From assembly GCA_003576845.1 (NCBI GenBank), contig QEVJ01000043.1:1-41262 (forward strand): a stretch of 41,262 nucleotides of DNA. Direction: 5' to 3'. Made by a program: the position numbers and the translations under genes. The notes under the pieces were generated by a model, which was not told where the DNA came from, searched no databases, and saw only the letters and a list, made by a program, of their open reading frames with translations. The stretch is from Planctomycetota bacterium. GTDB lineage: Bacteria; Planctomycetota; Planctomycetia; Pirellulales; PLA5. Position 1 is the stretch's first letter. Each line of letters starts with the position of its first letter. Shown piece after piece: positions 4,040 through 21,529 of this stretch.

Positions 4040-4112
4040 CGCAGCGTCGCCCTGTCAGCCCGCGGCACCCGCCAGTATCATTCGTTCACGCCGCGCGGAG
4101 CGAAGCGACACG

Positions 4113-4147
4113 CGAATCCCGAATCCCGAATCCCGAATCCCGAATCC
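4113..4147. repeat. Heptamer tandem array, 5 x CGAATCC
   Basis: Five exact, contiguous copies of the 7-nt word CGAATCC occupy 4113-4147. The array ends seven nt before the ATG of oligoendopeptidase F, taking up the space where a Shine-Dalgarno sequence would lie. It belongs to the window-wide family of 7-nt-period intergenic arrays. Confidence 0.9.
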
Positions 4148-4154
4148 GGCCTCC

Positions 4155-5948
4155 ATGAAAACGCTTCCCCGCCGCGACCAAGTCCAACCTCAGGACACCT
4201 GGGACCTTTCGAGCCTGTTTGCCGACGATGCCGCGTGGGAATCTGCTTTCCGCAAGTGGGAGAAGCGGATCGGGGGATATCAGAAGTTCCGCGGGCATCT
4301 CGCCGACAGTCCCCGGTCGCTTGCCGCGGCGCTGAAGTTTGAATCGCTCTTCGACCGCGCCGGCGAGGCGCTCGGGAACTATGCCTTTCTTAAATCGGCT
4401 GAAGACCAGTCGAACAGCACGTATCAGCGAATGGTTGGGCGCTATCAAAGCGCGGCCAGCCGCGCGGCCCAAGCCGCCAGCTACATGCGGCCCGAGATTC
4501 TGGCGATACCGCAAGGCAAGATGAAGCGGATGCTCGCCGACCGCGCGCTCAAGCCGTATCGCGTCCTGCTCGTGCGGATGCGGCGATTCAAGAAGCACAC
4601 GCTCTCGAAACGCGAGGAAGAACTCCTCGCGATGCAGAGCGAGATGGCATCGGCCACCAACAAGATTTTCACGCAGCTCAATAACTCCGACCTTAAGTTC
4701 GGCCTGGTGAAGAACGAACGGGGCGAAGAGATCGAACTGGGGCACGCCACGTTCAGCACCCTGCTGCATGCGCCCAAGCGCGCCGTCCGCAAGACGGCGT
4801 TTCACCAGTACTACGGTCAGTTCAAGGCGCACGAAAACACACTCGCCGCGACGCTTTCCGGTTCGATTCATCGCGACGTGTATTATGCCAAGGCCCGCGG
4901 GTACGCCAGCGCGCTCGATGCGGCGCTGTTTCCGGACAACGTTCCGCAAGCCGTGTACGACAATCTGATCTCCGCGGTCCATAAACATTTGCCGGCCGTG
5001 TATCGCTACCTCGATCTGCGGCGGCGAAAGATGAAGCTGCCCGACATCCACCACTACGACACGTACGTGCCGATTCTCAGCGACTTGGACACGCGGTATA
5101 CCTGGGATCAGGCGGTGCAAACGGTGATCGACGCGCTTACCCCGCTGGGAAGCGAGTATTGCGGCGTCCTCGAACGCGGCCTCAAGGGGCGCTGGTGCGA
5201 TCGCTTTCCGAACGTCGGCAAGCAGAGCGGGGCATTCAGTAGCGGGGCCTACGACGGCCAGCCCTACATCCTGATGAACTACCAGGAAGAAGTGCTCGAC
5301 CACGTGTTCACGCTTGCCCACGAAGCGGGACACTCGATGCACACGTATTATTCCGCCGCCAAGCAGCCGTTCCAGTATTACGACTACACGATCTTCGTCG
5401 CCGAAGTGGCGAGCACGTTCAACGAACAACTGTTGAGCAATCACTTGCGCGCGCGGGCCAAGAACGATCGCGAGCGGGCCTACCTCATCAACCGCGACAT
5501 CGACGCGATCCGCGCGACCATCGTTCGCCAGACGATGTTCGCCGAGTTCGAGAAGGTCGCCCACGCCCAAGTCGAATCCGGCGAACCTCTGACGGTCGAG
5601 GCGTTCAAGTCGATCTATCGCGGGCTGCTCGAAAGGTACTTTGGACCGGAGTTCGCGTTGGACGAGGAGCTTTCGCTCGAATGCTTCCGCATTCCGCATT
5701 TCTATCGTGCGTTCTACGTCTACAAGTACGCGACCGGCCTGGCCGCGGCGATCGCGCTCGCCGACCGCGTCACGACGGGCGGGAAGCAGGAACTGGCCGA
5801 CTACCTCGGCTTTCTTTCCGGCGGCTCATCGAAAGACCCGCTCGATCTGCTCCGCGGCGCGGGGGTCGACATGGCCAAGCCGGAGCCGGTCGAAACGGCC
5901 CTGGTTCATTTCGGGCGGCTGGTGGACGAACTCAACTCGCTGCTTTGA
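4155..5948 (+). CDS. pepF: Oligoendopeptidase F, M3 family
   Basis: A 597-residue cytosolic zinc metallopeptidase that cleaves short peptides. The zinc site is clear: HEAGH at residues 389-393 gives two His ligands and the catalytic Glu, and E417 in FVAEVASTFNE is the third ligand, 24 residues after the second His as is usual for M3 peptidases. Length is typical for PepF (about 600). The N-terminus reads MKTLPRRDQVQPQDTWDLSS; the 'TWDLSSLF' segment is a family hallmark. The frame is open for 100 codons further upstream, but that part overlaps the preceding gene and contains a translated heptamer array, so the ATG at 4155 is chosen. No Shine-Dalgarno is visible, because the CGAATCC array lies directly upstream. 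The C-terminal PF03-type helical domain is intact. Probably a housekeeping peptide-recycling enzyme. Confidence 0.95.
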   Translation: MKTLPRRDQVQPQDTWDLSSLFADDAAWESAFRKWEKRIGGYQKFRGHLADSPRSLAAALKFESLFDRAGEALGNYAFLKSAEDQSNSTYQRMVGRYQSAASRAAQAASYMRPEILAIPQGKMKRMLADRALKPYRVLLVRMRRFKKHTLSKREEELLAMQSEMASATNKIFTQLNNSDLKFGLVKNERGEEIELGHATFSTLLHAPKRAVRKTAFHQYYGQFKAHENTLAATLSGSIHRDVYYAKARGYASALDAALFPDNVPQAVYDNLISAVHKHLPAVYRYLDLRRRKMKLPDIHHYDTYVPILSDLDTRYTWDQAVQTVIDALTPLGSEYCGVLERGLKGRWCDRFPNVGKQSGAFSSGAYDGQPYILMNYQEEVLDHVFTLAHEAGHSMHTYYSAAKQPFQYYDYTIFVAEVASTFNEQLLSNHLRARAKNDRERAYLINRDIDAIRATIVRQTMFAEFEKVAHAQVESGEPLTVEAFKSIYRGLLERYFGPEFALDEELSLECFRIPHFYRAFYVYKYATGLAAAIALADRVTTGGKQELADYLGFLSGGSSKDPLDLLRGAGVDMAKPEPVETALVHFGRLVDELNSLL

Positions 5949-5950
5949 AA

Positions 5951-6080
5951 TGCAAAAGGCAAAATGAAAAGTGCAAAATGCGGAACGATCCGGCGTTCGG
6001 ATCGACGGAAGGCGAGCGTCCGGCTATCGGACTTCCTTCATTTTTCATTCTTCATTTTGCATTCGGCATCCTTCAACTGT
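5951..6080. repeat. Inverted pair of heptamer arrays between convergent genes
   Basis: Left arm 5951-5985 is five 7-nt words of the type TGCAAAA/GGCAAAA/TGAAAAG. Right arm 6039-6080 is six words of the type CATTTTT/CATTCTT/CATTTTG/CATTCGG. The arms are partly complementary (for example GCAAAATG with CATTTTGC), so a long imperfect hairpin can form. It fills the gap between the convergent pepF and ybaK genes and could work as a two-way transcription end. A small inner hairpin (CGATCCG...CGGATCG, 5985-6005) lies between the arms. Confidence 0.8.
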
Positions 6081-12381: not shown

Positions 12382-12458
12382 GCCTGTAGGAGGCGAATCC
12401 CTTCGCCGACCGAGGCGGCAGCCGAGCCCATCGGCGAAGGGATTCGCCTCCTACAGGC
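12382..12458. repeat. 28-bp perfect inverted repeat (REP/MITE-like)
   Basis: Positions 12382-12409 and 12431-12458 are exact reverse complements over 28 nt, separated by a 21-nt GC-rich loop. The arm begins GCCTGTAGGAGGCGAATCC. It lies upstream of cpaA and downstream of the small membrane-peptide gene. There is no T tract, no transposase and no obvious target duplication, so it is more like a dispersed palindromic element than a terminator. Its register is not heptameric. Confidence 0.9.
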
Positions 12459-13148: not shown

Positions 13149-14056
13149 TGCAAGACTCTCCAGTTGCACGGTCCGGCGACGGAACGCGCGAGGCGCCGCC
13201 ATGTGCCGGACCGAAATCAAAGGTGCACGAGTTTCCGCCGACAGCCACGCCCGCCGAAACGAACGTCAGCCTGCTCGGCCCGACGAAAACCCTACAAGTT
13301 CAATCGCGCCCTTCCCCTCGATCGCACTCCGTTGTGTTGTCCGATGTGACCGGCCGCCGCGACGCACCCCCGCGTCGCGACCGCCAAACGCACATCATCC
13401 CTTCGGCAGCCAGGCTGTTCCCGCGAGCTCCGCGAAGAGCACCGCCGGACCCTGTGGCTTTGCGTCCCGGCCGAACCGGCCGAGTTGCCTTTGTCGAGGA
13501 CGAAGCGCCGCAGGCTTTTACACCGCTACGAAGCTTCCGTCTGCACGGATACGAAATGTCAACTAACAGATAGGAGCCAGTAGACGGGAGACGCGACCGG
13601 CAGGCCGCGTCCGTAGCCAACTCGCAGGTTCACTGCTCGCGGCTACATTGGAAACCTACGTCGGCTTTTCGCGAAGTCAAACCGCGGGCTTTAGTCTTTT
13701 CGCGAAAAACTTGCCGCCTGCGGGCCGTTTGCCGGGCGAATGTCGCCATGACCGGCGCGATCGCCGCAAACGGACTCGCTGCGGCCGCACATTCGGCACG
13801 ATTGCACGAAACGCTCGTGCATTGGCGCGGGCGTCTCTGCTGTTCGAGGCGCGATCCGCGCGAAGCAGATGCGAGCGGCAGGCCCCGGCACGCGAAGGCG
13901 GCGGTACGGGCAACCTATTCTTCAAGCAGAGACACAAGAAAGCGCGGCATTGGCGCCAGGCCCGACGATCGAAATCTCAGATCTCAAATCTCAGATTCGA
14001 GATTTGCCTGCCTTCTCCGCGTCTCGGCGCCTCCGCGGTAGATCGAACACCGCGCG
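13149..14056. other. Gene-free region between flp and the prenyltransferase-repeat gene
   Basis: About 900 nt separate two divergently transcribed genes. Open frames here are rich in Arg, Pro and Ser and show no family signal, so none is called. It contains a short stem at 13358-13379 (CGCGACGC/GCGTCGCG), a heptamer array at 13973-14007, and a flanking stretch (13924-14035) with words like CGCGTCT and TCCGCGG in the same 7-nt register. The flp promoter must lie in it, but none was convincingly identified. Confidence 0.5.
13973..14007. repeat. Heptamer array (AATCTCA / GATCTCA words)
   Basis: Five consecutive 7-nt words: AATCTCA, GATCTCA, AATCTCA, GATTCGA, GATTTGC. The last three also form a small hairpin (AAATCTC with GAGATTT). 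Downstream, to about 14035, the same 7-nt register continues with GC-rich words. Confidence 0.8.
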
Positions 14057-19293: not shown

Positions 19294-19391
19294 GAACACA
19301 GAGAGCACGGAGGTGGAGCACAGAGGGCACGGAGGAATGCAGAATGAAGAATGCAAAATGAAGAATGTGGGATAACGATGGAAGATGCGGA
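19294..19391. repeat. Fourteen-unit heptamer array with two word types
   Basis: The 7-nt period runs from 19294 to about 19391. The first six words are of the GAACACA/GAGAGCA/CGGAGGT type; at 19336 it switches, in the same register, to AATGCAG/AATGAAG/AATGCAA words and then decays. It occupies the gap between the TrmH-type gene and the unknown helical-protein gene, in the 5' leader of the latter. Confidence 0.85.
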
Positions 19392-21325: not shown

Positions 21326-21529
21326 CGTAGGGTGGGTCGAACCAAGTGCGGCCCACCGGGACCGGGACGGAATTGTGAATCGTAAATGGTGAGTTGCGAA
21401 TTGTGAATGACGAGTTGCGAGCAACCGACGGCTGCCTCCCGTTCATTCACCATTCACAATTCACTACTTTCCGTTCGCAATTCCATGTCGCGCCGCCGGT
21501 GGGCCTCACTTCGTTCGACCCACCCTACG
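21326..21529. repeat. Nested palindromic element: 34-bp TIRs around inverted heptamer arrays
   Basis: Outer arms 21326-21359 and 21496-21529 are reverse complements over 34 nt with two mismatches (left arm begins CGTAGGGTGGGTCG). Inside, 21372-21420 holds seven 7-nt words (ATTGTGA, ATCGTAA, ATGGTGA, GTTGCGA and so on) and 21441-21482 holds six words of opposite sense (GTTCATT, CACCATT, CACAATT and so on). The whole 204-nt element could fold into one long hairpin. It fills most of the 314-nt gap between the convergent-free methyltransferase start and the stop of the giant CotH gene and abuts that stop (21531). No transposase is present. Confidence 0.88.

Follow-up and report, generated by a model that had tools for sequence, protein, structure and literature searches.

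REPINs are doublets of REP sequences that form hairpins (Bertels and Rainey 2011, PMC3116915). The GTAG REP superfamily comprises 24 families, forms head-to-head dimers and has the PVC superphylum among its hosts (Di Nocera et al. 2013, PMC3733652). Nested arrangements have been described there as well, with GTAG-15 of Anabaena variabilis lying inside long palindromes and Pseudomonas REPs joined to unrelated stem-loops (PMC3733652). A different kind of dispersed repeat, the TAACTGA repeats of Beggiatoaceae, consists of intergenic direct repeats of a heptamer that are found mostly just upstream of start codons (PMC4679880).

Here we describe a nested palindrome in a planctomycete genome that resembles each of these systems in part. 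We refer to the whole stretch of DNA that was analysed (41,262 nt) as the window. Like REPINs, the element is an inverted pair of REPs with conserved ends in which the length and pairing of the spacer weigh more than its sequence, and it belongs to a dispersed set in a genome that carries genes for REP-associated tyrosine transposases (RAYTs), the window copy lying between two genes; unlike REPINs, it has a spacer of ~140 nt rather than ~25 nt, occupied by a second repeat family with dispersed copies of its own, and its cognate RAYT is only a candidate (PMC3116915). It shares with the GTAG REP superfamily an unpaired GTAG tag beside a GC-rich stem-loop and the head-to-head dimer, whereas dimer spacers in that superfamily are mostly 20-100 nt and the stem and loop found here were not matched to one of the 24 families (PMC3733652). 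As in the Anabaena variabilis and Pseudomonas cases, one nested structure combines a REP dimer with a second palindrome; in those cases the REP dimer lies inside or is joined end to end, but here the second palindrome lies inside the REP dimer (PMC3733652). The inner arrays are built, like those of Beggiatoaceae, from dispersed, intergenic seven-base units, though they are inverted pairs with unit variants in a fixed order rather than direct repeats (PMC4679880). We found no literature on inverted heptamer arrays within REP dimers among open-licence papers. The composite is a larger version of a well-known kind of miniature mobile element in bacteria.

Results

Layout of the element

The element occupies positions 21326-21529 of the window, where 34-nt inverted arms surround inverted arrays of GAATNGT-like heptamers (Table 1). 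The left arm, CGTAGGGTGGGTCGAACCAAGTGCGGCCCACCGG (21326-21359), and the reverse complement of the right arm, CGTAGGGTGGGTCGAACGAAGTGAGGCCCACCGG (21496-21529), differ at 2 of 34 positions; an earlier note on this DNA had described 34-nt outer arms with two mismatches around heptamer words of opposite sense, and that description is exact. An inverted-repeat search lengthened the paired arms to 43 nt (86% identity), and no longer inverted repeat was found within the 41-kb window. The element sits between two open reading frames (ORFs), directly past one gene's stop codon and ahead of the next co-directional gene, and such a location after a stop codon is typical for REPs. The gene content includes LTD, CotH and dockerin domains, as would fit a planctomycete. 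A c-di-GMP-I riboswitch aptamer scores above the Rfam gathering score on the minus strand at 13402-13499 and is the sole Rfam match reported in the window.

Table 1. Parts of the nested palindrome, in window coordinates
Feature	Position	Strand	Description
Left GTAG-tagged REP	21326..21358	+	Tag GTAG at 21327-21330; stem GGTGGGTC...GGCCCACC; fits the consensus of 88 genomic copies; predicted hairpin; one inner pair covarying
Left spacer, REP to heptamer array	21359..21369	.	REP-to-array distance mostly 12-14 nt across copies
Left heptamer arm	21370..21408	+	GAATTGT GAATCGT AAATGGT GAGTTGC GAATTGT GAAT; weaker units continue to ~21422
Central loop	21409..21444	.	Identity to C109 loop 26/36, to C287 loop 24/36; dissimilar to most other heptamer-family loops
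Right heptamer arm, inverted	21445..21483	-	Inverted copy of the left heptamer arm
Right spacer	21484..21496	.	12/13 identity to the corresponding C287 spacer
Right GTAG-tagged REP, inverted	21497..21529	-	End 1 nt from the stop codon (21531) of the upstream minus-strand ORF

The outer arms are GTAG-tagged REPs

The repeat inventory of the genome was built from pattern lists and fetched stretches. The arm core occurs in 88 copies (≤1 mismatch) across many contigs of the 7.05-Mb genome, against 4 matches for the reversed control. The consensus of these copies, CGTAGGGTGGGTCGAACGAAGTGAGGCCCACC, places a GTAG tag ahead of an imperfect palindrome, and most copies carry GTAG and then GGTGGGTC..GGCCCACC. 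One inner stem pair reads A-T in 40 copies, G-C in 11 and is mismatched (AC) in 2; since its two sides vary together, each arm is predicted to form a hairpin on its own. By their sequence features (an unpaired GTAG tag, a GC-rich imperfect palindrome and a high dispersed copy number), the arms are GTAG-tagged REPs.

Head-to-head dimers with the tags outside account for 42 rows of the inventory, about 40 of them distinct, and the window element is among them. Approximately 30 distinct dimers are plain, with a median length of 90 nt and no heptamers, while 10 distinct dimers bear heptamers and have a median length of 202 nt; the difference is about the length of one heptamer palindrome. A further 27 arms are single and lack heptamers. 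Judged by the criterion for refutation given in the earlier note, the idea that the outer arm always flanks heptamers is contradicted from the REP side by the plain dimers and single arms, and from the other side by the 44 of 66 listed heptamer clusters that have no REP. Some REP copies (C11:30479, C134:14903, C161:18144 and C219:114) are followed by a shared downstream tail, GGCCCCATACGCATNAAGTTA, possibly pointing to another composite or larger element with the same REP.

The inner arrays belong to a lineage-specific heptamer family

The heptamer core has 176 matches in the genome with ≤2 mismatches and none in the control; on these counts, neither the arms nor the heptamers are a chance occurrence. 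From the 48 palindromes in which both arms could be aligned (and hence at least 48 sites), we derived a family arm consensus, GAATTGTGAATGGAAAATGGTGAATTGTGAAT; the arms are ~39 nt long, and their heptamer variants stand in the same order across all 48. The palindromes are mostly 90-120 nt in length, and 5 of the 45 that could be placed lie inside an ORF on a crude ORF call. Loops and flanks are mostly unrelated between palindromes, with loop-to-loop similarity barely above that of shuffled loops. The two arms of one palindrome are no more similar than arms of different palindromes, a comparison biased downward because copies were chosen for at least one good arm. The heptamer palindrome is thus a repeat family separate from the REPs and dispersed through the genome.

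We also compared the distribution of the two repeats across related genomes. The one same-genus genome searched is rich in the same REPs but has a single weak, chance-like match to the heptamer core, and few others among ~390 genomes of the phylum have similar heptamer words. The heptamer family is therefore young or lineage-specific, and the REP family older and wider. The methyltransferase neighbouring the element shares 67% protein identity with its same-genus counterpart.

Heptamer arrays of other wording occur in the window too. GAATGCA/AAATGAA arrays lie at 5934-6071 (an inverted pair) and 19335-19387; this wording has ~175 core matches in the genome, and of ~390 other genomes in the phylum one has 22 matches and the rest almost none. 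In sampled stretches these arrays lie outside dimers of the REP described here. A direct GAATCCC heptamer array lies at 4107-4153, with many such arrays elsewhere in the genome.

Heptamer palindromes are associated with REPs

Among the matches listed, 22 of the 66 heptamer clusters lie next to at least one correctly oriented REP, compared with 7 of 400 random positions, and 11 of 66 are flanked by REPs on both sides, compared with 0 of 400. When clusters with a core of ≤1 mismatch are listed genome-wide, 18 of 60 lie next to at least one REP and 8 of 60 have REPs on both sides; for the two-mismatch copies away from REPs, the figures refer to the matches listed. The two repeats occur together far more often than the background would give. 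On either side of the palindrome, the heptamers mostly lie 12-14 nt from the REP body, a spacing consistent with an insertion mid-way in a ~25-nt REPIN loop.

The composite has full-length homologues with unrelated flanks

Full-length matches to the window element lie at two further loci, C109:8486-8695 (E = 2e-52) and C287:3105-3306 (E = 4e-51), which are ~80% identical to it from end to end. Relative to the window copy, the left REP is identical at 28/34 positions in C109 and 30/34 in C287, the right REP at 32/33 and 28/33, and the right spacer at 8/13 and 12/13; identity in the left spacer is lower, at 7/11 and 4/11. Apart from the left spacer and one right spacer, identities of the parts fall between 67 and 97%. 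The 40-nt outer flanks match those of the window copy at 10-14 of 40 positions (25-35%), which is chance level. Homology among the three copies starts and stops at the GTAG tags, and the flanks beyond are unrelated; the composite has therefore spread as a REP-delimited unit. A mobile unit of this kind predicts end-to-end homology bounded by the tags, and the pattern fits it rather than a larger segmental duplication. The suggestion in the earlier note of a composite non-autonomous element is supported by the nesting of two unrelated repeat families and by these exact boundaries. Copying of the whole unit is visible in one clear subfamily only, that of the three full-length copies; other composites share arms and little loop or spacer sequence. 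No filled and empty pair of one locus was found.

These same comparisons bear on whether the heptamer palindrome instead moves or spreads on its own and has repeatedly landed in REPIN loops, so that the composite is a mere hot spot and immobile as a unit. We regard this as unlikely. It would account for the 44 of 66 listed clusters outside REPs and for the constant spacing in composites whose loops and spacers are for the most part unrelated from copy to copy, and insertion sequences are already known to target REPs (PMC3116915). Against it, the trio C258/C109/C287 has loop and spacers in common and unrelated outer flanks. It is also opposed by the REP-free heptamer palindromes, whose flanks (26 copies) are not palindromic beyond permuted pairs; the family therefore has no general preference for hairpin loops, and we rejected a role for it as a general hairpin-loop inserter.

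The fold and its position after a gene

The earlier note had also offered a folded RNA. Under this reading, a ~200-nt RNA hairpin would be kept for stabilising or terminating the mRNA of the upstream gene, as a structured RNA or transcript-end element. The predicted fold is very stable, with a folding energy of -129.3 kcal/mol where shuffled sequences average -72 (z = -12.5), although this z score simply restates the palindrome. The element begins one base past a stop codon, and on a crude ORF call heptamer palindromes are frequent in convergent gaps and scarce in divergent ones, which hold 3 of the 33 intergenic palindromes but make up 61 of 365 gaps. The homologues speak against this reading: C109 and C287 each show one two-sided (compensatory) change, compared with 11 and 13 broken pairs out of 83. 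Nor are the arms of one element more alike than those of different elements, in the downward-biased comparison given above, and Rfam gave no match at the element at the gathering cut-off. REPs located after genes are already known (PMC3733652), such a position being ordinary for them; the element may still act on mRNA ends, and any such effect would be secondary. These alignments give no support for selection on the 200-nt fold, and we consider an RNA as the selected object to be quite unlikely.

Coincidental drift, in which slippage made heptamer arrays that lie near REPs by chance, is very improbable: the genome does hold many heptamer arrays of other wording, but the fixed order of variants in 48 palindromes, the constant 12-14 nt spacing and a REP association far over random (22/66 listed clusters against 7/400) all oppose it, in agreement with the earlier view that this is not simple drift.

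Candidate transposases

Two proteins in the genome score above the NCBIfam REP_Tyr_transpos cut-off, at loci C26 and C70. The RAYT gene at C26 adjoins inverted GTAGGAGGCGAATCC REPs, which are a different GTAG family. The gene at C70 adjoins GTAGGGTGGGCTGTGCCCACC REPs, which have the same stem as the arms of the window element and another loop and occur in ~50 copies, many of them as ~153-nt dimers. We can only infer the mobilising enzyme, because neither of these two RAYT genes is flanked by exactly the REP of the window element. A search for a Y1 transposase in the same-genus genome rich in the same REPs (assembly 92% complete) gave no match, and the RAYT-like loci in a same-order genome are without the REP of the window element.

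The GTAGGGTGGGCTGTGCCCACC head-to-head dimers, at C70:1992-2152 and ~14 other sites, are strikingly constant in length (~150-157 nt), and the RAYT gene lies beside one of them. The GTAGGAGGCGAATCC family found beside the C26 RAYT gene is also represented in the window, where a second REPIN (12382-12458) has perfect 28-nt inverted arms, GCCTGTAGGAGGCGAATCCCTTCGCCGA, and a 21-nt loop.

Discussion

The element is probably a REPIN whose loop has been enlarged by a lineage-specific heptamer palindrome, with the composite copied end to end as a REP-bounded unit by a RAYT acting in trans. Two GTAG-tagged REPs in head-to-head orientation, tags outside, form the REPIN, and its loop, usually ~25 nt in such elements, is brought to ~140 nt by a second inverted-repeat element. 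The heptamer palindrome may first have entered the REPIN near the loop apex. Copying would then proceed through single-strand DNA processing by the RAYT, which would act on the REP hairpins and GTAG tags while the heptamer palindrome rides along as loop cargo.

The element also brings to light a family of inverted heptamer arrays that is lineage-specific. The arms of this family stay alike while its loops do not, a pattern for which we found no described copying mechanism. We raise the tentative and rather doubtful possibility that the heptamer palindrome represents a separate class of propagating repeat that has yet to be described, behaving as though its two arms were each written or maintained on their own. 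Such a repeat would preferentially enter the loops of REPINs, and the REP system would then carry it. The enlarged REPIN itself offers a natural case of a long, repeat-bearing loop in an element that is seemingly still copied as a unit; the mobile element therefore appears to be defined by its REP ends and not by the loop, and small cargo would be tolerated.
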